Assembly: GCA_016800925.1 (NCBI GenBank)
Contig: JABCPU010000124.1
Span: 62,001-126,000, forward strand
Source of the DNA: Suillus spraguei
Lineage: Eukaryota > Basidiomycota > Agaricomycetes > Boletales > Suillaceae
DNA: 64,000 bases
Reading direction: 5' to 3'
A program made the position numbers and the translations under genes. Positions 1 to 31,895 of this stretch are shown here, piece by piece. Positions within the stretch are counted from its first letter, which is position 1; each line of letters opens with the position of its first letter. The notes beneath the pieces are model-generated. The model ran no database searches and was not told the DNA's origin. It saw only the letters and a program-made list of their open reading frames with translations.

Positions 1-1502
1 GCAGGCAAACCCGATACTATTCTTGGACTTACGAGAGTCTTATATGCAGTCTTGTCTTTGGGGAAACACCTATAGTAGACGACCACCTGAATGGTCAACA
101 TCCCAAATGCACTGTAATGGAAGGTCGAATTCAGCATCAGAAGGTCAAATGGATGAGTACCTACGTGGCAGAGACGGCGAAGCCTACGAGCAAGGCACCG
201 AGGGTGTTATCAAAACGCGGGAGGACGTCTTCTACGGGCATCTTGCAGACGCAAGCAACGAGATGAATGAGCGAATGAATGAAGATAAAGGTTATGATTA
301 GAAGGTAGCATTATGAAATAGTCGGCTGCAACAGCCTTGGGTATCATACATACTCCGTAAACGGATTGGATCTAGTAGTAGGTCCGACGAAGTTGTTGAC
401 GATGATGCATTGATGCTCCAATGTCTGGGCTCCGAATCCGAATACCGGCGTGGAAGTTTGGGAATCAGGACAGAATCATGCAAGATTGCATCCCGGCAAA
501 AGTTTCACCAGGAGAAGATTAATGTTCGGAACCGCATGTTTTTTGCGTCTTGAACAATTTATGCACATGGGCATCGCAACTTTAACTTACGGTAGTGCAT
601 TTTTAAATTGACCAGCGACTTACTTAAGCGCTGCTAAATGTGGAAGATCCGCGGCACTAGAGACTTTGTGGCATGGAACACATGTGCAGACAAAAATGCA
701 GGTCATTATCAGTTTCACAGCTCCAGTTCTGTAGGGTAATCTTGTTACAAAGAATGGTTTGTATACGGTTGCCATACTATTGCCGAGCCTGTACATCAAT
801 ACATAACGTTGTGCCTCAATCGGAATTGTCATGTGCAGGAGTGTACCCTCTAAAAGTTTATGCATCGTCGGATATTATCATGAGCGTCTCATTGGCGAAA
901 CATGAATGAACCTGACGCAATATTAATGTCGACGATATGTACAGACCGATAGAAGGCTTGACATTGGACTTCGATCTGGTCTCACCGATAACAACAATTG
1001 TCATGTGGTCTCGCAAAAGTTATGACATACCGTTCGGATAGGCACAGGGCACCCACCAGAGTGAATGGTTACACGCTGAAAGATAGGATCATAACAATTG
1101 TAATTGCGGTGACTTACGTTGAGCGCAAAGTGCCGATGCTGATGCAATGATCCAGAGTCACCGGTGGCGACCGAGGTCACGGTGATTAATGATTACTAGT
1201 ATCAATTACCAATCCGCAGAATGGATTCACAATACATAGAGTTTTGCATCACAAGCACGGAGGCATAAGTACATTTGCGATGGGGACGCGTCGTCCATTG
1301 TAATCCTATATAATCTCGGGACTAGTTGATCATGCACTACTCTTGGAGCATTGAAAAAAAATTCACGATTTCGAATTCAAGATACTCTTATAGTTCAAAG
1401 GAAATTATGTATTACCAATTGATAAAGTTCGATTTGAATAAAGGCCATCCGGGAGAACCCAAGACTTACTGTGAAATGTTGATTCCAAATGACGTATTCC
1501 AG
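1..1502. repeat. Dispersed repeat R, copy 1 (runs off the left edge)
   Basis: This stretch is closely similar, in the same orientation, to 9100-10226 (copy R2). Its middle part (about 735-960) is also similar to 1940-2020 plus 5392-5690 (copy R3). Shared landmarks are the start 'CCCGATA', the motif 'CCCTCTAAAAGT' and 'GGAAATTATGTA'. Short open frames (23-301 here, 9091-9465 in R2) encode related peptides, but they are interrupted and match no family I know. I read them as decayed remnants of a repeat, not genes. Class of element is unknown. Confidence 0.75.
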
Positions 1503-1931
1503 AGGATTTAAATATCAAGTCCCACTAAATCAAAATTCGCGGTGGTTCCACTTTAACCACGTCGCCTTTACCTGCCTTCCCCGTTTCCACCACGATCCAC
1601 TATCGGACGGAGAGAAGCCCGTGTGAACGATCGTCCAAACTCCACAGGCACTCCTACTTCCGCCAGACAAAACCCAACACATCGTTGAGGTTAGTCATAG
1701 CGAGCCCAGGCAACGACAGCCCTCGTAAAATGTGTCCTGGACTCAAAATACACCCCACTTTTCTTCCATGCTTAGCTCGTAGCACCTTGCTTGTCCAGCA
1801 ACTGCAACAACACTGCTAGTTCCAGCACCAGATGCAGTCTCAATATCTCGTTTTGCAACGTCTACTGCAGAGCGCACGAGGACAGCAATAAACGGTTTGA
1901 GCACAGCAGCTAGCAGCGCGGATGGTGCAAG
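1503..1931 (-). pseudogene. Truncated copy of the YEATS-gene 3' end
   Basis: The sequence matches 10909-11366, the 3' end of the YEATS-domain gene, in the same orientation, with substitutions and several deletions (an 18 bp loss near 1707 is one). Only the C-terminal 130 or so codons and a little 3' flank are represented. It joins repeat R1 directly. In the source locus, R2 and the YEATS 3' end are separated by 682 bp. It cannot encode a functional protein. Confidence 0.85.
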
Positions 1932-1939
1932 AACACGCG

Positions 1940-2020
1940 TTGTCAGTTTTACATCATGTAGCGTAATCTTTGCTTATGTTACCATACTATTGCTGAGCGT
2001 TTATTAATAATACATAACGT
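1940..2020. repeat. Dispersed repeat R, copy 3, left part
   Basis: Similar to R1 at about 735-815, including 'CCATACTATTG' and 'ACATAACGT'. The copy stops abruptly at 2020, where the inverted-repeat element begins, and resumes at 5392. Confidence 0.75.
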
Positions 2021-2053
2021 ATGGAAAGCCAGAGCACCGTGCTCATTTGCCAG
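2021..2053 (+). repeat. Left terminal inverted repeat
   Basis: Begins ATGGAAAGCC and includes the palindrome GAGCACCGTGCTC at 2032-2044; a second copy of the palindrome follows at 2053-2065. It pairs with 5359-5391 on the other strand. Confidence 0.85.
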
Positions 2054-2225
2054 AGCACCGTGCTCACGTGCATTGCCTTATTAGGCAAAAAGTTTCGACG
2101 GGACTCCAGACACGCCTTGGAGCCAACCCAGTATTTGCACCTAGTAAAACAAGTGACTACGAAGTATAATTTCAACCTCGAAAAACGACGGTCCAGTCAC
2201 GAAGTACACTAACACAATTCGAATA

Positions 2226-3945
2226 TCACCATTCATCCACTGCGCCATCATTCTCTGACTCATCACTCGAAAATTGCCAAACAATTAAGGGTCCAACACC
2301 CGCAGAACTGCCATCCAATGGAACATCAGGTTCATCCAGCTCGGCTAGAGCGTTTAAGTTGTGGACGTGAGAATCACCTTTGGCCTCGTCAGTATATAAT
2401 TGATTAAAGGAGATTTGCGTCGTACCTAGGCCCAATCCTCCCACGCACGCCACCCATGTAATACATGTCATCCGGTTCCTCGTTGAAAGGTAAATCGGCA
2501 TGGCCACTGATCAATGTCAATGCACCGGTGGCGGCACCTTCATTTTCCGTCCGAGTCAGTAGTAAGTTGGGATGTGGGTTCTCTGCAAGCTGTACAGCAG
2601 ACAGCACATTCCTATATACAGTCCAAACTGATGACCGAGTCACTGCAGGGCGCCCCATTGCATCATAACAATGCTCGATAAAGTTGCCAAGCATAGGTGG
2701 GACAAGGTCGAATACCGGGTTGGAAGCATCGATATAGACATTGCGAACGTAGTCGATGCCCTCGCGATCTATAGAAACCTAGTTGGCATAGTCAAGTAAG
2801 CCTTTGTGTGCGGTCACTTGTGCAAATGAATACCTTGAAATCCAATGCTCCGAAATCTTCGGGAGAATGGTAGATAAGAGTTGGGACACCGTGTGGGAGT
2901 ACCTAGGGGGATTGTAAGCACACATTTTAATGAGACAGAAATAAGTAGATACCTTGTTGCGGTCACGCCTCTTGGCGGAATTGTTCACTCGGTCTCTATA
3001 AGCGTCAAGCTCCTGCTGCAGCCAGGGTATAAAAACCCAACGAAAAATCATCCTAGAAGACAACAAGACATATAAGGGCATAGGACCATAAGACAAGCGC
3101 TACGTACATTTGGAGAGTATCCGCTGAGTCGTACCAACCCTCAATGACACCTTCGTCCAGCAAATTCTCGAAGCCAGGTGTGAACCTACGCCGGAGTTGT
3201 GACCAAGTGATTTCCGGCATTACGTTTTTCTTCGTGCGCATCCAACGATGTTGCAGAGTTCCTTGCAGGGTTGGGTCATAGCGCTGGCGAAGAAGCGTCT
3301 GCGCGTTCGCAATGCCATAATTTTCGGACCCTAAATCGGATTGAGTGATCAGCGGCATATCTAGCACTTGCGTCAGTGAAGTATTTACAAATGGCATATC
3401 ACTCACGGCCAAGTTCTGCGATTGTGTCGAGATAGTAGTTGAGGATTAACTGTGGGTTTCTGTTAGAATGCCAAACTCGGATCCACATTATCCGCCCTGA
3501 AAACGGCTCGATTCCAGTGTGAAGACCGAGCCCAAATCTGAGCCATTTGTCGTGCTGGTCAACGGCAAAGAGATCGTTAACGCCAGCTGCCCAGAAGCGC
3601 TTTCGTTTCAATTTTCTGGCCTTACGTTGTCGCACGAGTTCTGGTTCATAGGCAGCGAAGTAAGACATCATGACTGATCTATTATAGTCACGGTTGCGAT
3701 GTCAGTCTTTGACAAACAGATCAACTTGACAAAATTACCTAGATACACTCATACTCTTTTCGTGAAAGAGCAGACTGATCATCTCTCGTGTTCCGGCGTG
3801 AGGGTACATCTTGCGAAGATCCGTCACAGCTTCGTGGATTGTTTCTATAGTGTGACCCTGCCGGCGAGACCGTTCAAGGCCCATGTCCACACGGATTTGA
3901 CGAAACTTTGTGAGTCTAGGATAGTTATGAGCAATTAAGTCAGCT
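2226..3945 (-). CDS. Integrase-core-domain protein, putative transposase
   Basis: The spliced protein belongs to a family common in basidiomycete genomes, annotated as integrase catalytic/core domain. Exons joined on minus read: an N-terminal helical part with GLERSRRQGHTIETI, then FFAAYEPELVRQRKAR-like sequence, then the core with WAAGVNDLFAVDQHDKW (first acidic residue of an RNase H-like fold), GIEPFSGRIMWIRVW, SDLGSENYGIANAQ (second acidic position, QSD.GSEN), and HRWMRTKKNVMPEITWSQLR. The C-terminal part contains WLQQELDAYRDRVNN, LPHGVPTLIYHSPEDFGALD and GRPAVTRSSVW. Introns of 50-60 bp are seen near 3730, 3400, 3110, 2940 and 2800. No stop or frameshift interrupts the spliced frame, so the gene looks intact apart from an undefined 5' end: the frame opens around 3945 without a clear ATG, and a first exon may be missing or upstream. 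It lies in the TIR element, divergent from the alpha-kinase. Confidence 0.75.
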
Positions 3946-4088
3946 AATCATAAATATCGTATACGTACCCGATACCGTAGCGTTCTGTATTGAAAGCACC
4001 ATCTGAAGCGGCACTGTCCAAAGCGCCAGTCAAGCGGCCGTTTCAGCGTGAGATTGCGAGTGTCCCATCCTCGCCTCCCCTCAAGAAA

Positions 4089-5235
4089 ATGGCATCTGCC
4101 AATGTTGGTTTCCGTTCTCCAGATCGAGAACAGCTGCGGGAAGTTTTGCAGTCTGGTGGGACTACAGACATAGATGTCCGACAAGTAAGTACGTGCTATT
4201 ACTCTTAGTCCTTCTCTGACATCACACCTCCTAGTGCTCACTATACAGCACGAGAATATTGAATTCTTCCCCATCCCAACACGCCCGCTATCAGTCATTT
4301 TAGACGACCCAAAGCTTCATGCTGCCTTCCGCACGGACACCGAATTGAGCCACAGCGGCCGACTTACAGTTCAGACCTCGACGGACGACATGCTTGGCGT
4401 TGGAGGCTTCAAGACGGCCCATCCTGGGTTCTTGACGCTTTTATCAGCCCCCGAAATTCCTTTAGGTTCACGCCCACGCCAGAAGGTCGCTGTCAAGCGA
4501 CCATTTTACAAGAAGTACCCTCCAGGCAGCAGCACAAACCCGATCAATTTTTCGATTGGACGCTATACGATAAGTGACGAGCTTCCAAAGCTGTTCAGAG
4601 AAGCCAATGTCTTGTACTGGGCACGCTCATTGCTCACATTTGCATATGAATACATAGACCATTGTGTTGCTAATTCATCCGACACTCCGCCCTTTCACAT
4701 CCCTCGCTTGCGTTTTGTCGAGGCCGGTCTCGCATTGTCACACGATCACACACAACCTGGCCACAAATCAAAGTCACTGACCATGCCTCGGGCTGGGTAC
4801 CTCGTCGAAGAGTTGATCACCGATGATTTCATCAAATATATCCATAATATGGATTGCAACCCTATGCTTGATCCATACGAGGTTGGCTATGAAATCGCCG
4901 AATTTCTAGCTTGCACGCAACACATACAGTTTGCCAAAACCGGCGGTCTCGCTTTCATTTCCGATTACCAAGGTGGATTGGAGATTTTGTCTGACCCTCA
5001 AGTTCTTACACATCCGTACGTGATTTCATTTTAAAATATTACTCGTAACTCAACTGGGGACTATAGCCTGGTCAACAAAGGGAAGGATGATATCTTCGGG
5101 GATGGCAACATCGAACGTGCAGTTAGCACATTCGAGAAGGAGCACAATTGCAACAAGTTTTGTAAATGGAGTGGCTTTAAGTTGAAAATTTACGAAAAGT
5201 TGGAAATTGACGAAGCAGAGACGGAGACAGATTAA
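4089..5235 (+). CDS. Alpha-kinase (atypical Ser/Thr kinase) carried by the TIR element
   Basis: Spliced product has the alpha-kinase signature: a lysine in QKVAVKRPFYKK, YLVEELI, FLACTQHIQFAKTGGLAFISDYQGG, ILSDPQVLTHP, then FGDGNI and the zinc-binding C-terminal motif EKEHNCNKFCKW. Introns follow codon ..VRQ (4184-4248) and ..LTHP (about 5017-5066). The family phosphorylates Ser/Thr on proteins and is strongly expanded in some basidiomycetes; targets are unknown. The first in-frame ATG is at 4089. The open frame extends back to 3981 with plausible coding sequence, but a stop lies at 3978-3980, so an upstream exon (acceptor at 3980) is possible. At about 340 residues it is little more than the kinase domain. 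It starts close to the 5' end of the integrase gene on the opposite strand and ends 124 bp before the right inverted repeat, which makes it part of the element. Confidence 0.8.
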
Positions 5236-5358
5236 TCTTGGGACTTGTAGATTTCTTGCTGGGGCTTGTAGATTCACGTTTTGTTTGGACATGCTTATAT
5301 CAAAGTATTATTTGCACGCAGTGTTTGGGGTCCCTCAACTGCATGTGACCAAAGTCGC

Positions 5359-5391
5359 TGGCAAAACGAGCACGGTGCTCCGGCTTTCCAT
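5359..5391 (-). repeat. Right terminal inverted repeat
   Basis: Reverse complement of 2021-2053 with two or three differences. It contains the palindrome GAGCACGGTGCTC at 5368-5380 and ends GGCTTTCCAT. Confidence 0.85.
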
Positions 5392-5690
5392 AATAACGTT
5401 GTTCCTGAACTCAAAGCATTTGAATGCATACGGAATTGTTGTGTAAAACACGCAGTTCCTTCAGGAGTACCTGTATCCTCTAAAAGTTTATGCGCCCTCG
5501 GATATCATCATGAGCTTCCCATTGGCGAAGCAAGAATGATCCTGACGCACAATGTCGACAACAACGAGAAGGGATAGGTACAGGGACACACGAACTTTGC
5601 ACATGTATCATATTGCACATTTCCATCCTGATACGATGCCAGAGCGAATGGTTATACACAAAAGCAAAGATACTATCACTCCCGGTAATA
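5392..5690. repeat. Dispersed repeat R, copy 3, right part
   Basis: Resumes the repeat interrupted at 2020. It shares 'CCTCTAAAAGTTTATGC' and 'CCCATTGGCGAAGCA' with R1 (850-895) and R2 (9777-9830). The right limit is approximate. Confidence 0.7.
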
Positions 5691-9090: not shown

Positions 9091-10226
9091 ATGAACGTGC
9101 AGGTGAACCCGATAGTATTCTTGCACTTACGAGAGTCTTGTATGCAGCCTTGTCTTGAAGAAAACGCCTATAGTAGACGAACACCTGCATGGACAACATC
9201 CCAAATGCACTGTAATGCAAGGACGAATTCAGCACCGAAAAGTCAAATGGGTGAGTACCTACGTAGCAGAGATAGCGAAGCCTATGAGCAAGGCACCGAG
9301 GGTGTTATCAAAATGCGAGAGGACGTATTCTGCGGGCATCTTGCAGACCCAAGCAACGGGATGAACGAGCGAATATATGAGGATGAAGATTGCTTAGAAC
9401 GTGGCATTATGGCTGCAACAGCCCTGGGTATCATACATACCCGTAAGCGGATTGTATCCTACTAGGCCTTATTCCGAAGAAGTAGTGGACGATGCGATGA
9501 TGCATCCGATGCTCCGGTGTCTGAGACCGGATACCGTGTAGAAGTTTGGGAATCAGGATAGAAACGTCCAAAATTACATCTTGATAAGATTTTCACTAGG
9601 ATCTAGAGGATTAATGTTATTCGGAACCACATGTTTTTCGTGTCTTCAACAGTCCATGCACATGGAAACTTGTGTTTTGATTTTACCAACGACTTACTTA
9701 CTAAAGCGCTGCCCGGGGTGGAACGTTCTGACATTTGAGATACGGAATTCGAATGACGATATAGAACGGAGTGCACCCTCTAAAAGTCTGTGCGCCCTCG
9801 GTTATTTGCGTACGCTTCCCATTGGCGAAGCAGGAATGAAACCAATGCAATGGCAATGTCGACAATATTCCAGACTGATCCATAGAAGCTTTGGCATACT
9901 AGTATTTCGATCTGATTTCATCGATAACAACAAGTGTCATGTGGTCAAAGACCTCACAAATGTTGCGGAATGCCGAGAAGGGATAGGCACACGAAATGCG
10001 CATGTATACACACCAAAAGATCATACCAATTGTGGACTTACGTTGAGCGCAAAGTGCCGATCAGTTGACCTTCAGTCGCTTATCTCGAAGGAAATTATGT
10101 ACTATCAATTGGCAAGGTTCGATTTGAATGAATATTGCAAGCCCATTCGGGAGAACGACGTCTAGCTCCAAGACTTACTATAGGTGTTTATTCAAGAAAG
10201 TTCCAGAAGCGCAAATAACGTATTCC
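9091..10226. repeat. Dispersed repeat R, copy 2
   Basis: Same orientation and content as R1 (1-1502), with deletions. For example, the part around 'CCATACTATTG' present in R1 and R3 is absent here. The 124-residue frame at 9091-9465 is related to the R1 frame at 23-301, and neither resembles a known protein. Confidence 0.75.
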
Positions 10227-10944
10227 CTCTGTCGGTCTTGAGTGATGGGAACTCACTAAGATACCTTTCATATCGATGGCTTGAAGGATTCATAAATGCG
10301 ATACGGTCAGGGCTCGTGTGCTGTTGTGTAGCATGATGTGGGGGATTCCTTCCAGGTCCCACCACACATCTCGCGTCGTTGCTCTCGTACATACTAGTCA
10401 CCTGTGCTCAAGTGAAAAACAAGCAAACGCCAAAAATTATAAAAATGCGCGTAATTACCGCAGTGACAAACAAGCGCCACGGGAGGCAAGGTTCACGAAA
10501 AGCTATACGATGCGTATCAGTCGGCGGTGGCAAGCCCTAATGTGCAAATAAAATTACTGTCGCGTTCTGCATCACAATTGAAAGTTCTTGAAATATACAT
10601 TATCAAATATCGTTTGCAAAGACACGCACTGATTATAATACTCAACTATAACATCAAGCGCTGGACAGAGCCTAGCTATTGATTATCCACGTCCAAAATA
10701 TGTGTAGTATATCTAAAGTAGAGTTGTTTGACCCACCACTCTCAAGGCAGGGAGATCCTGGCGAGCCCCAATATCAACCACCCGCTCCATAATGTTATGA
10801 GCGTAAGAGACTCACCGGTTTCGCAAGGCATGCATTATGTTTTGCACAGTCCAAGGGATCACAATGGATATAAAAAAAGGCAGTACCTGCCCACGACATC
10901 GGACTCGGAGAGGATTCAAATACCAAGTCCCACTAAATTAAGAT
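10227..10944. other. Spacer between repeat R2 and the YEATS gene
   Basis: No gene seen. The part 10227-10908 is exactly the segment missing from the duplicated version at the left end, where R1 is fused to the YEATS tail at about 1502. Either the left copy lost it or it was inserted here; I find no inverted ends that would mark it as an element. Confidence 0.55.
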
Positions 10945-13900
10945 TCACGGCGGTTCCACTTTAACCACATCGCTTTCAACTGCCTTCCCCGTTTCCATAC
11001 TGCCATCCTGATCCACCATCGGACGGAGAGAAGCCCGCGTGAACGATCGTCCAAACTCCATAGGCACTCCTACTTCCGCCAGACAAAGCCTCAACACATC
11101 GTTGAGTTTAATCATAGCGAGCCCGCCACCATGGACAGGAGTAGGCAACGACAGCCCTCGTAAGATGTGTCCTGGAGTCAAAATACACCCTACTTTTCTT
11201 CCTCGCTTAGTTCGTGGTACCTTGCCTTGTCCAGCAACTGCAACAACACTACTAGTTCCAGCACCAGATGCAATTGCAATATCCCGTTTTGCAACGTCTA
11301 CTGCAGAGCGCACGAGGACAGCAATAAACGGTTTGAGCACAGCAGCTAGCAGCGCAGATGGTGCAAATGCCTCTTCGACCTCCGAATTTGTACGGCGCTT
11401 GTCCAGGGAGGGAGAGGGAAGTTCAGGGAAATGCGAAAGTCGCAAAGACCCAACGCTCCTATGAATAGCAAGAATAAGATCAGGCGGACTTAATGAGACA
11501 ATTTGCCGCGCAGAATAACGCCAAGCTCCGAGCATTTGAGAAGAAGCCATAGGTTGATGCGGTAGAGCTCGCCTGTCCCCCGCAGTGTTCCCGGCGTATA
11601 GGGCGGTTTCTAGTTCGCCTCCAAAAATCTTCGTCAAATTGACAATGGGTATTCGTAAATCCCGCTCAAGTTCGTGTGGCGGAACGATATCGCAAACCCA
11701 AGTTACTGTCTCATCGAAAACAGGCTCCTTCTTCACTTTGACGGTGACAGTAAGTGCGGGATGAAATCGTTTCTTTATGCCGCAGACAAAGCAGGGTTCA
11801 TCCACTGGTAAAATTGCAGATTCCTTCTCCTTGTCCTTGACTTTTGCTCTATCCTTCTTTTCTTTCGCACTTGGAACAGGAACCTCGTTCTTCGAAGACG
11901 AACGCGGAAAAAGCCCCGAGTCTTCTAGGAAGGCATAGACATCACCAACAGTGAGAGAAATCAAGTCCACCGAGTCCGGGGCCGAGGAGGTGTGCTGGAC
12001 ATAAAGGGCTTGTAGTGCTCGGGCTCTTCCCCACTACGAATAAGTTTAGATACATGACAACAGTAAAGTCGATGCCGATAAAAATACGCACTTCGATAGC
12101 TTTCCGTCTCCCGGGTACAAGCGCCAGAAGATGCGCCACAGAGGGAACCAGTTTATATGGTACTTGGAAAGGTGAACGGAATTTCATATCTATGGCAACG
12201 TCATATCAGAAAATTGCAAATGAACGCGCGCCGCAGCGTTAGTCAGAAATACCTTTGAGCGTCATAGGGACTCTTGGCAACAAACTCCGCAGAACCTTCT
12301 CATATCCTAATTCATCCACAGATTCTCGAGGTTTTGCCACAGATTGCCTTGTAATCTCTGCAGGTTCACGTTCCAGGGAAGGAATAGGCGGTGGAAGACC
12401 AGAGGGGACAGGAAGGAGACGTGTCCCTTTGTCAAGTTCGACATCAAGAACTTGTTCTGAACCAAGAACAGAGCTCGTTGCGTTCCCAGGGTCAAGCTAC
12501 GTGAAGACTGAATATGAGCGATGCAAGGCCAGAAGAAAGACACACATCGATCCAATGTTCTACTTCCATTCTCCCGCCACTAGCCCACTCCATCACGACC
12601 TTCGCAAGAAAGGGCTCAGAAGATGAGCCTATGATGGCAAATGGCACTTTGTCCACAGTACAAGACTGCCGTAGTGTATTATCAGATGGGGCCACAGCCA
12701 AAACTGTCAAGCGTATCATGAATGACGCCAAGGGAATTGACTATGGAAGCGTGGATATATATTATATGGCTTGGAGGATGAGAAAGGAATGCACGCACAT
12801 AAGAAGGAGCGGTGACACTGAGCATCCACCGGTGAGTGTGCGACGGTGGGATACTGAGGTCTACCCGTCGGTCTGCACAGATGCGATCAAACTTAATTAA
12901 TATGTTGTAAAATGTGAGCATACTTGGTGAGATAAATAAACTTCTATCTGTGATATGCACACGAGCGGTGATATGGAAGCGTGAAGTTGTGCTTCCTGGT
13001 ATCGCAGGAGTTGCTGTGTTTTCTGCAACGTTATCAACAAAGGCAGGAGCGTCGACAACGAGATCGAGTTCAGGGCGAGCTCTATTTCGATGCGGAAAAG
13101 TCATTCGCCAAGGACGACCACCACCCTCGTCTGCTTCCCTACCTTCGAATCTGGGAGAAGGCCTACGTAGAGCAGTATCGACACTGAGAATGTCAACATC
13201 TGTATCTTCCTCATAAGTGTGTATGCATCTCCGTTTTGGGACTCTGCCAAGAAATGGAGCAAGGGCAGGAGAGTCTGCATGTAAACCGAGGGTGCGTGAA
13301 AGCAGGGTGCTGGGTATAGCTGCCATGCCAGCCGCCCCCTGGCCCTCTTCGGAAATAAGGGACGTAGGGATATTCACACCGACAGCTCGTTCAAACAGTC
13401 GTTGTAGACCGACGACACTGCCTCCCCAAGGTACTTCAAAACCTTCCTCCTCGACCCGATCTTTCTCTACCTCATCACTGGAGGGTACCGGAACAGCACA
13501 AGCTGTAATACATGCATCGTGGCTGGCCCACTCAGTACCATGGGCAAGCCGCGCATGATTCAAGAGCCCTTGAAGGGTACTGAACTGCGTGCGAGTACAA
13601 GTAGGGCAGGTAAGAATAGCAATCTGTTCATCGACGGCTATCTGTGAAGGGGGCAGACGGATATAGAGCAACTTTTTCTGCGGGTGGATTTTTGCTGCAG
13701 CCGTACGCGTTGGTCTGACCTTCGGAGGTATACGCTCGCGCTGTGTTGGGGCTACAGGGGAGAATGAACGAAGAGGAGGTTCAGCCTCATCGTATACCGA
13801 CTCCTCTCGATCATATAAGAATGCGCAAGGTACTTCGACAGCGTTAAGGGCATCTAAAGCAGCTTCTTGAAAGTCATCTGCTGTAGCGTCAGGAACTAGA

Positions 13901-21406: not shown

Positions 21407-23696
21407 ATGTTTGTGAGTTGCACACTTTTTCTGTTCGATAGCTTTCATCTAATGCATGTTCCTGCTATCGTACAGACGGGCTATGGTACGGGTCTTCAAT
21501 TCGGACTTGGGATACCACAATTGGCTCTTCCCGTTGGGTGGGTTGCAACCACTACCACGTCTACCCGCTCGTGAGTTGCGATATATATATATATCATATG
21601 TAACATCATAATAACTGAAGTTTCTAAGAACGAATAATTACGACAACCTTATGGGGATCGGCACCCAATATCCCCAGCAAGAATGGGTTGCACCAACGCA
21701 ACCTTTTTATAATCCCATGTCATTGACATCCCAATATAATCAGCGCTCCGATTATGACAGGGCCATTAACATGAATTCGCCATCTGATACTGACTTTGAA
21801 AATCATAGTAAGGCAAAATTGAGGGAAGGGCGATGGAAGGAAGCACTTATCTATGCACAGATGGTGCGATGGTACCTCGGACCATTTCATAACCTTAGCT
21901 GACTTTAGCGAGATACACAGGTCGTCCAACTCAACCCTTCATCTCACGTTGGATACCAGTTGATGCATGCTGCGTTTCATGGCGCACAATACTATGTTGA
22001 AGCTATTGCAGCCTTCCAAACGATGCTCTCAAGATTGGATAATGCTCGTGATACTGAGTCACAAAGTAAACTCCAATAACTCTTACGTCAACACACTTTA
22101 ATGATTTCAGCAGAGTTGCGCCAGCAGTACCTCAGTCCATCCGAAGTGGGCCGTACTATTCAAAAAGTCATCGATGCTCAACTTGAAAATACTCCGCTGC
22201 GTGTACTTGATACCACCACCGGCCTCTTATGCGATCGAGAGACGCAGATAAGCACCTTCAAATCGAGCATAGAGTATAACGAGCTTGTATCATCAACAAT
22301 TACGCATCGAGATATCGATATGAAGCGCGTCGAAGGAGTGGTGGGGACATACTTCCGATATGCCATGCTGTCACACAGGTGGGAAGGGAAGGAACCGCTG
22401 CTGCAGGACATACAGGGCAGGGCCGTCTATATGTTGACTCCGGTTGGCGGCATCGCTAAATTGCAGTCTTTCTGCCAAACTGCATATAGTTTGGGGTATC
22501 GCTGGGCATGGAGTGATACATGCTGTATTGACAAGAACAACCCTACTGAGCACCAAGATTCGGTCAAGTCTATGTTCAGCTGGTATCACCACTCCGCGCT
22601 CACGGTTGTATACCTCTCGGATGTCCCACCTTCATCAAAGTCTGGCGCACTGCAAAAGAGCGCTTGGATCACCCGCGGGTGGACTGTTCAAGAATTTCTC
22701 GCCCCCAAAGTCATTCTCTTCTTTCAGAAGGATTGGACTCCTTATCTTGGTGATCACACTTCAAACCACAAGGATTCCGTCGTGATCATGCAGGAGTTGG
22801 AGAATGTGACGGGCATAGATCGACGGGCCGTCGTGGGTTTCCGTCCCGAGATGAAAAACGCCCGAGAGAAACTGCAGTGGGCATCGAGACGTACTACCAC
22901 ATTGCAAGAAGACATCGCATACTCGTTATCTGGCATCTTTGGGATCCGCTTAAGTGTTGATTATGGCGAGAAGAAGCAGAGCGCACTCGGGCGGCTTCTG
23001 CGGGAAATCATAGCCCAGTCGGGCGACATTACTGCCCTGGACTGGGTCGGAAAGTCGTCAGACTTCAACAGCTGCCTACCAGCTGACATCACTTCATACA
23101 ACGCTCCACCATGCAAACGACCGTCTCTATCCACAAATAAAATTCAGGCATTGGTCTCCTCGCTGCGGGGTTTTGTGCCTCTACAGTCGGCTTCGAAACT
23201 GTATGAGGCACTAGACCACCTGGGTGCTCCCGATTTCACGAGCCACCGGTTGTCTCTGCCTTGTATTGTATTCCCAGTCACAGAAGCCACGCGGAGGTCA
23301 GGTCGAAACCAGAACGCATATACAGTCAAGTCAGACGGGCTTCTTGATCTGCAGATCACCATGGAAGACACGTTGATCCCGTTCTCGTCTGCAAGGCCGC
23401 CTCCCCCCTGGCAAACAATCTTGCTCGTTCGTCCATGGAGTCGCGATCTCCTCGAGTTGGATGACCCTGCTAAAGATTCATCCGGTGCACAAAACAAGCC
23501 GGGTTATTCGGATTCTTACTCCCGCGCATTGCGTTTGATAGTTCACCTTAAACAGCCCTTTGGTGCATTTTTGCTAGCGCGGCAGCGCGATGGAGCACTC
23601 AAGAGGATTGCATCGGATCATGATATCATTGCTCAGGTTAAAGACATGGCTTCTGTTGACCACATGATGGACATCAGGACCCTAGAGATACTGTAG
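21407..23696 (+). CDS. HET-domain protein with TPR-like N-terminal part (copy A)
   Basis: HET domains are found in fungal non-self recognition (heterokaryon incompatibility) proteins. Short exon 1 (ATG TTT) starts at 21407. After a Gly-rich stretch and a linker comes a TPR-like pair of helices split by an intron (FENHSKAKLREGRWKEALIY and HAAFHGAQYYVEAIAAFQTM). The large last exon (from about 22109) holds the HET domain: YFRYAMLSHRWEGKEPL, LGYRWAWSDTCCIDKNN, SMFSWYHHSALTVVYLSDV, TRGWTVQEFLAPKVILFFQK, and TTLQEDIAYSLSGIFGIRL, followed by a C-terminal region without a family I know. About 660 residues and no internal stop. Compared with copy B its N-terminal Arg-Gly repeat is lost (GYGTGLQFGLG instead of RGRGRGSQRGRG) and one intron would use an AAG acceptor, so copy A may be drifting. 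It is the left member of a segmental duplication. Confidence 0.85.
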
Positions 23697-29653: not shown

Positions 29654-31895
29654 ATGCCGGTGAGTTGCACACTTTTTCTGTTCGACCGCTGTCATATAAT
29701 GCTATCGCACAGAGGGGCCGTGGAAGAGGTTCTCAACGCGGACGTGGAGTGCCACAATCGCCTCGTACCAGTGGCAGGGTTCCAACTCCTCCAACCCACT
29801 CGTAAGTTGCGATATATATATGTAGCATCATAATAAGTGGTGTTTTTCAGCATGGATAACTACAAATCTACGGATATCCGCACTGAATACCCACAGCAAG
29901 AATGGCCTGCGCCGACACCGGCTCCTCGTGACCCCATATCATTAACACCCATTCAGCGCCCCGGTTATGACAGGGTTATTGACAATTCACAATCTGATGC
30001 CGTCTTTGAAAATCATAGTAAGGTAAAATATGGGGAACGGTCATGGATGGATGCACTTCTCGAAGCGCAAAAGGTGTGATGGTACCTCGGACCATTTCAT
30101 AACTAATAACTGACGTCGGCGAGATACACAGATCATCAAACTCAACCCTTCATCTCATATCGGATACAAGTTAAAGCACGCTGCGTTCCATGGTGCACAA
30201 CGTTATGACGAAGCTATTGCGGCCTTTCAAACGATGCTCTCAATATTGGATAATGCTTGTGACGCTGAGTCACAAAGTAAGCTCCAATAACTCTTACGTC
30301 GACATACTTTAATGGTTTCTGCAGAGTTGCGCCAGCAGTACCTCAGTCCATCCGAAGTGGACCGTACTATTCAAAAAGTCATCAGTGTTCAACTTGAAAA
30401 TGCTCCGCTGCGTGTACTCGATACCACCACTGGTCTCTTGTGTAATCGAGAGACGCAGATACACACCTTCAAATCGAGTACAGAGTATAGTGAGCTCGTA
30501 TCATCAACAATCACGCATCGAGATATCGATATGAAGCGCATCGAAGGAGTGGTGGGGACATACTTCCGATATGCCATGCTGTCACACAGGTGGGAAGGGA
30601 AGGAACCGCTGCTGCAGGATATTCAGGGCAAGGTTGTCTACAAGTTGGATCCGGTTGGCAGCATCACGAAATTGCAGTCCTTCTGCAAAACTGCCCGTGA
30701 TTTGGGGTATCGCTGGGCATGGAGTGATACATGCTGCATTGACAAGAACAACCATGTTGAACTCCAAGAATCGGTCAACTCTATGTTCATCTGGTACCAC
30801 CACTCCGATATCACAGTTGTATACCTCTCGGATGTCCCACCTTCATCAAAGTCTGGCGCACTGGCAAAGAGTGCTTGGAACACGCGCGGATGGACAGTTC
30901 AAGAATTCCTCGCTCCCAAAGTCATTCTGTTCTACCAGAAGGATTGGACTCCTTATCTTAACGATCGCACTCCAAACCACAAGGATTCCGTCGCGATCAT
31001 GCAGGAATTGGAGAATGTGACAGGCATAGATCGACGAGCCATCGTGGCCTTCCGTCCCGAGATGAAAAACGCCCGAGAGAAACTGCAGTGGGCATCGAGA
31101 CGTACTACCACATTGCAAGAAGACATCGCCTACTCATTATCTGGCCTATTTGGGATCCGCTTAAATGTTGATTATGGCGAGAAGAAGCAGAGCGCACTCG
31201 GGCGGCTTCTGCGGGAAATCATAGCCCAGTCGGGCGACATTACTGCCCTGGACTGGGTCGGGAAGTCGTCAGACTTCAACAGCTGTCTACCAGCTGATAT
31301 CACTTCATACACCGCCCCTCCTTGCAAACTCACAAATGAGATTCAGTTATCGGTCTCTTCGTTGCGAGGTCTCGTGCCTCTACAGTCGGCCTCGAAATTA
31401 TATCAAGCACTAGACCACTTGAGTGCTCCCCATTTCGCGTACCGCATGTTGCATCTACCATGCATCGTATTCCCAGTCACAGAAGCCATAGGGAGGCCAG
31501 GTCGAGACCAGGATACATACACAGTCAAGTCAAACGGTCTTCTTGATCTGCAGATCACCATGGAAGACACGTTGATCCCGTTCTCGCCTACAAGGCCGCC
31601 TCCCGTCTGGCAAAAAATCTTGCTCGTTCGCCCATGGAGTCGCGATCTCCTTGAGTTGGATGACGCTGCTGAAGATTCTTCCGCTGCACACAACGAGCCG
31701 GATTATTCGGATTCTTATTCCCGTGCATTGCGTTTGATAGTTCGCCTCGGACAGCCTTTCGCTGCGTTTTTGCTGGCGCGGCAGCGCGATGGAGCATTCA
31801 AGAGGATCGCGTCGGGCCATGATATCGTTGCCCGGGTTAAAGACGTGACTTCTATTGACAACATGATGGATGTCAGGATACTGCAAATACTGTAA
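29654..31895 (+). CDS. HET-domain protein with Arg-Gly-rich and TPR-like N-terminal parts (copy B)
   Basis: Paralogue of copy A with the same exon layout. The start (ATG CCG, 29654) leads into RGRGRGSQRGRGVPQSPR, an RG-rich segment, then a linker, then TPR-like helices (FENHSKVKYGERSWMDALLE; HAAFHGAQRYDEAIAAFQTM). The HET domain shows YFRYAMLSHRWEGKEPL, LGYRWAWSDTCCIDKNN, MFIWYHHSDITVVYLSDV, TRGWTVQEFLAPKVILFYQK and TTLQEDIAYSLSGLFGIRL. All splice sites are standard GT-AG and no stop interrupts it, so this copy looks the healthier of the two. In its C-terminal half it lacks a few residues relative to copy A (after CK in the TSYTAPPCK region). HET proteins commonly act in allorecognition and cell death; that role here is inference. 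Confidence 0.88.

Follow-up and report, generated by a model that had tools for sequence, protein, structure and literature searches.

The ectomycorrhizal bolete Suillus spraguei carries, at positions 2020–5392 of the 64,000 nt stretch analysed here (contig JABCPU010000124.1, positions 62,001–126,000; hereafter the window), an inserted DNA element, 3,373 bp long, which has inverted ends and is flanked by a 6 bp target duplication, ATAACG. This window copy is a non-autonomous, internally deleted DNA transposon of the IS3EU type, and it is very probably one whose longer relatives pair the transposase with a co-evolved alpha-kinase kept by selection.

The inverted arms (2020–2072 and 5340–5392) are 53 nt long and 75 % complementary overall, the best pairing, judged by eye, being in the outer ~33 bp. 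A preliminary description of this DNA, made from the sequence alone, had reported inverted ends of about 33 bp and a duplication of 6–8 bp (ATAACGT); both features are real, with the bounds one base wider on each side and the duplication length fixed at 6 bp by the copy family, in which 23 of the 25 copies with both ends readable show it (21 of 23 called automatically, together with C689 and C602, whose imperfect left ends were read by eye). The description had also taken the host repeat R1 for the empty version of the insertion site, and R1 does align across the joined flanks of the element with a single ATAACG, as a paralogous empty site. Within the left end, the palindromic motif listed in Table 1 is present twice, and its copies are candidate transposase-binding sites.

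Copy family and recent movement

A search of the genome with the left end of the element gives 29 matches, and over 140 bases 25 of these are identical, a result on which a chance inverted repeat is rejected. Fifteen of the 29 copies are ~5.76–5.94 kb long and match both genes in divergent orientation; one more long copy (C1195) is interrupted by the start of its contig. Shorter copies are C1229 and C549 (~4.8 kb), C544 (~5.1 kb), C1087 (~3.7 kb) and C425, C314 and C269b (1,346 bp), and C440, C366 and C327 are interrupted or partial. The form of the window copy accounts for three matches (C269, C787 and C1158). C787 represents the window locus itself, the two sequences aligning over 6.4 kb with 7 gaps and no mismatch, so the short form occupies two independent sites, and C1158 and the window copy have in common a 2,389 bp deletion with a 2 bp overlap, AA. 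The 1,346 bp form lacks 4,416 bp and is located at three sites, each with a different duplication. Given that derivatives with heavy coding loss sit at several sites, shortened copies would be mobilised in trans by transposase from full copies.

The flanks of 20 different insertion sites (12 + 10, two in both sets) were joined and searched against the same assembly, and an uninterrupted counterpart with 95–100 % identity across the junction was found for 16. Among the candidates scored (40 of 260 and 40 of 470), a depth at which counterparts may be missed, no empty counterpart was found in that assembly for the window site, C1158 or C425, and the C314 site is in a repeat with many 86–98 % relatives. 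Most simply, the empty counterparts would be the second haplotype of the dikaryon. The element family is recently active; the presence/absence differences asked about in the preliminary description are seen within one assembly, and as many sites exist both with and without the insertion, natural comparisons are possible. From the ends, the duplications and the empty sites, the transposase would excise and insert the element by a cut-and-paste route acting on its TATGG..CCATA ends.

Several further observations concern individual copies. A 1.35 kb derivative (L048:6515–7859, corresponding to G000 C269:14514–15858) lies on the window’s own contig, upstream of the window and ~46 kb from where it starts. 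C952 and C991 have a common left flank (99.8 % over 1.5 kb) and different right flanks, and C952 has no duplication, a pattern attributable to either an assembly chimera or ectopic recombination. C1240 and C1065 differ by small duplications and contractions in the intergenic and 5′ kinase region of the long copies, the remainder being nearly identical. C549 (L019/L057) is inserted beside or into another element, the end of which, GGTCTGGCTTTCCATA, resembles the second family. The left and right flanks of C1158 match two places, one on the window’s contig (G000 C269:44312–44389) and one at C1047:29719–29803.

Recurrence of the integrase and alpha-kinase pair

An alpha-kinase is carried inside a DNA transposon together with an integrase-core transposase. 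The earlier proposal that the kinase travels with the element is borne out, and such pairs recur between matching ends with short duplications in three families. Besides the window family, both genes lie inside a divergent relative, C128 (6,432 bp, duplication TCATTG), each end of which is one mismatch from that of the window copy over 18 bases, and inside the members of a third family, C302, C292 and C1246, which have identical 35 bp inverted ends and the duplications GCTAAC, TTAATT and TTCTAC, respectively. Ends were also sought at C438 and C344, where only one plausible end each was found. Leaving the window family aside, 18 integrase loci are listed; upstream of 15 of them, on the other strand, lies a kinase match, at a distance of up to ~5 kb in 12 cases and of 9.4–10.4 kb in three.

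In other species, kinase homologues were assigned to a named host in 58 cases, and for 13 of these the contig agrees in species and length with that of a listed integrase homologue, against ~2.1 expected by chance under random placement in 45 Mb genomes (of 464 integrase matches 120 were listed, 118 of them named). Two of the 13 pairs have consecutive locus tags, in S. luteus (CY34DRAFT_15632/15633) and S. fuscotomentosus (F5891DRAFT_1191262/1191263). A profile search with the kinase returned 60 proteins, three of them new relative to the earlier kinase search; none came from a rust or a member of Agaricales, the named hosts being Suillus and other genera which we take to belong to Boletales as well.

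Within the S. spraguei genome, the Pfam Alpha_kinase model has 29 matches, of which 25 are in the window family and two more (C344 and C397) adjoin an integrase, placing 27 of the 29 beside such an integrase. The kinase at C644 is 43–48 % identical to five of the six element kinases compared and 34 % identical to the sixth. Most alpha-kinase genes of S. spraguei look like transposon parts. The suggestion in the preliminary description that the element could explain the abundance of alpha-kinases holds for most of those in this one genome, and kinase counts in such genomes need re-reading, most here adjoining an element integrase. Passages of PMC4469406 and PMC4150398 list alpha-kinase expansion in rusts as a gene-family trait and include one alpha-kinase among the genes of rusts for which diversifying selection is described in pathogen-associated families.

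The two proteins, co-divergence and selection

The longer copies encode a DDE integrase-core transposase and an alpha-kinase, oriented divergently and separated by ~1 kb of intergenic DNA (981 bp in C991). The transposase matches rva_4 with an E value of 6e-13 and has D146, D205 and E246 conserved; a sequence search against solved structures returned no convincing match (six hits, best E 0.1) and a comparison with PHROGs no match. The kinase comprises a Cys-rich N-terminus, a conserved middle domain without a Pfam match and a C-terminal alpha-kinase domain, and its spliced model of 734 residues matches an annotated S. spraguei protein over the full length. Its alpha-kinase domain, fold and catalytic and zinc residues are those of PF02816, and a second look by way of structure bears on residues 420–725 and barely on the rest. 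The nine catalytic and zinc-motif residues checked are invariant across 33–38 aligned sequences. Compared with other PF02816 alpha-kinases (TRPM7/ChaK, myosin heavy chain kinase A and eEF2 kinase), this one differs in being transposon-encoded and in its N-terminal and middle regions.

Kinase and transposase have co-diverged. Across 15 pairs, namely the 13 matched by contig as above plus P0001/P0060 of S. spraguei and P0182/P0069, kinase and integrase distances correlate with r 0.897, a value as high being reached in 0 of 20,000 permutations. Because species history could yield such a correlation, re-pairing was restricted to within species, in a set that included four S. spraguei elements read from DNA; the true pairing was the sole one of 2,880 at the observed r of 0.84.

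The ratio of non-synonymous to synonymous substitution rates (dN/dS) indicates that the kinase is under purifying selection. Between the window family and C128, the only copy for which whole-gene dN/dS is usable and itself decayed (five stops in the kinase and two in the integrase), the ratio is 0.258 for the kinase, 0.162 for kinase residues 440–734 and 0.178 for the integrase; selection has thus acted on the kinase to about the same degree as on the transposase. The remaining whole-gene comparisons are synonymously saturated (synonymous differences, pS, at least 0.748; non-synonymous, pN, 0.23–0.39), and a partial comparison of kinase residues 1–300 with C438 (0.141, pS 0.706) is near saturation and is given no weight. 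Most of the copies observed are young or in decay, so purifying selection would have acted on the elements as they spread.

Relationship to known elements

The window family appears to fit the IS3EU superfamily, an assignment that rests on the ends, the duplications, the transposase type and the published pair, and not on a tree. Passages of PMC10045372 give TA..TA termini, usually 6 bp duplications and an IS3/IS481-like DDE integrase core for IS3EU/GingerRoot. The ends described here agree with these termini, and also with the TAYGG..CCRTA of fungal TET-bearing IS3EU elements, with inverted repeats of more than 30 bp; a 6 bp duplication is found in C128, C302, C292 and C1246 as well as in the window family, and the rva_4 transposase is of the DDE integrase-core type. 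The window family carries a kinase, whereas the word ‘kinase’ appears 0 times in the main text of PMC10045372.

The preliminary description knew of no described element with this pair, a claim that is overturned by passages of Kojima 2025 (PMC12730594), which describe TET-bearing IS3EU elements, from rusts and a truffle, with a transposase and an alpha-kinase that are oppositely oriented. Those elements resemble the present ones in the opposed genes, the 6 bp duplications and the inverted ends, and differ in having a TET/JBP gene between the two. The 981 bp intergenic region of C991 has no TET/JBP gene, as neither of its longest open frames, of 156 and 137 residues, gives a Pfam match up to E 0.1; the window family, of a bolete host and not a rust or truffle, is therefore not filed as TET-bearing IS3EU. 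The pairing is thus already known and little remarked: beyond PMC12730594, neither a paper on transposase/alpha-kinase pairing nor a published test of its evolutionary constancy was found among the papers listed from the open-licence PubMed Central (PMC) literature. New here are the pair in two more families, the co-divergence of kinase and transposase, the conserved catalytic residues, the dN/dS values and the empty sites. A Polinton identity is presumed not to apply. Ginger1 and Ginger2 are rejected, since passages of PMC10045372 give them duplications of 4 bp and 4–5 bp, respectively, against 6 bp here.

Role of the kinase

The kinase is best read as a putative helper of the element, kept by selection, rather than as a random passenger. 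It would phosphorylate either the transposase of the element or a host factor that acts in silencing, in repair or in the timing of the cell cycle, and we lean towards the view that it has been kept because phosphorylation of one or the other aids the spread of the element. Passages of PMC3902898 on the Mos1 mariner provide a precedent for phosphorylation of a DNA transposase controlling transposition, although the kinase in that case is the host’s PKA and inhibitory, whereas the kinase here is element-borne. A wider and more tentative possibility, which we would stop just short of backing, is that fungal IS3EU transposases have a standing functional partner in an alpha-kinase carried by the element, which licenses or protects transposition. 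If true, much of the basidiomycete alpha-kinase expansion, that of rusts included, would consist of transposon genes and not of host signalling genes. It is unusual for a transposase to have as its co-inherited partner a kinase subject to purifying selection, and the arrangement is directly testable.

Several observations weigh against this account of the family. The long copies C1240 and C952 are without a target duplication. For C817 two perfect counterparts were found, and C549 is inserted in a repeat; the empty-site matches of both may be repeat copies, and without them 14 of the 20 sites have an empty counterpart. No listed kinase match is found near the integrase loci C307, C702:257302 and C684, and no listed integrase match near seven kinase loci (C361, C315, C865, C869:125499, C860, C425:119745 and C644), with the kinase at C425:119745 only 32–38 % identical to element kinases and containing a stop in its zinc motif. 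Another 16 rva_4 matches to the Pfam model on other contigs (G000 C310, C317, C869, C77, C769, C469, C603 and C55), apparently a different group, fall outside the kinase-pairing tally. Among the matches listed, integrase homologues of ~50–60 % identity are found in Agaricales (Mycena, Hypsizygus and Lyophyllum among them), and the kinase searches, which were word-limited and concern the faster-diverging protein, gave no homologue outside Boletales genera; Agaricales integrases with no kinase counterpart found count against universal pairing. The decayed state of C128 and the basis of the IS3EU assignment, both given above, belong here too.

Selection could instead act at the level of the host, with kinase-bearing copies kept because the kinase benefits the fungus, for instance in symbiosis or stress signalling. 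Purifying selection alone is silent on the beneficiary, and the rust expansion with its one kinase under diversifying selection (PMC4469406 and PMC4150398, in the passages cited above) and the seven kinase loci without a listed integrase nearby are compatible with such a benefit. However, the empty versions of 16 of the 20 tested insertions and the stops in divergent copies are as expected for element genes, and the kinase follows the transposase lineage within species; we consider a host benefit unlikely. Doubt is greater still for a neutral passenger, a host gene captured once and carried because it is harmless, as the nine invariant residues, a kinase dN/dS (0.16–0.26) near that of the transposase (0.18), the tight co-divergence within species and the upstream kinase at 15 of 18 other listed integrase loci all argue against it, even though shortened copies that lack a full kinase gene amplify as well and, according to passages of PMC12730594, gene capture is seen in many fungal transposons (TET/JBP in 11 lineages). 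The helper role is therefore preferred, host benefit and passive carriage both being less likely.

Structure of the window copy and its surroundings

In the full copy C991 the integrase starts at 2140 (minus strand) and the kinase at 3122 (plus strand). Alignment of the window copy with a full copy shows that the absent 2,389 bp include both start codons, the intergenic region, integrase residues 1–38 and kinase residues 1–355, both catalytic domains (integrase DDE and kinase) remaining. Additionally, two 1-base indels, in a C-run (2440–2442) and an A-run (4183–4184), distinguish the window copy from C1158 and also from C787, which is the same locus; the inserted C shifts the frame of the integrase C-terminus and may possibly be a homopolymer sequencing error. 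The preliminary picture of a compact element with two apparently intact frames therefore fails, since the deletion removes the starts and intergenic region, the two 1-base differences come on top of it, and the window copy derives from an element of ~5.76 kb. That the window copy is instead the complete two-gene element, and the longer copies the same element with extra inserted sequence, can be practically dismissed: although it keeps both catalytic domains and its form is found at two sites, the missing 2,389 bp hold the start codons and exons with which both proteins become complete and match homologues from the first residue, other families show a similar full-size organisation, and further independent deletions exist in the copy family.

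Table 1. Features of the element and its insertion site, in window positions
Feature	Position	Strand	Basis
R1, paralogous host repeat that shows the insertion site uninterrupted, with a single ATAACG	721..980	+	
Left target-site duplication ATAACG (6 bp)	2014..2019		6 bp duplication pattern of the copy family
Whole element, 3,373 bp internal-deletion derivative of a ~5.76 kb IS3EU-type transposon	2020..5392		Comparison with genome copies
Left terminal inverted repeat, starting TATGGAAAGCC	2020..2053	+	
Palindromic motif GAGCACCGTGCTC, two copies (2032–2044 and 2053–2065), each inside a copy of a 21 bp direct repeat	2032..2065	+	
Integrase-core (rva_4, DDE) transposase gene, 5′-truncated, without residues 1–38; 1-base insertion in C-run 2440–2442	2226..3995	-	
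Deletion junction, 2 bp overlap AA; 2,389 bp of the full element absent	3994..3995		
Alpha-kinase gene, 5′-truncated (residues 356–734); catalytic domain kept, start codon and Cys-motif N-terminus gone	3996..5235	+	
Right terminal inverted repeat, finishing GGCTTTCCATA	5359..5392	-	
Right target-site duplication ATAACG (6 bp)	5393..5398		

The element is inserted at the end of one duplicate of a diverged ~2 kb duplication (window 1–1930 versus 9099–11366; ~78–100 % identical by piece, at a spacing of ~8.7–9.4 kb), which sits among the repeat families D1 and D3–D17. Further along the window, two long similar open frames are located on the plus strand at 22080–23696 and 30291–31895, which we take, by eye, to resemble proteins of the heterokaryon-incompatibility (HET) type.
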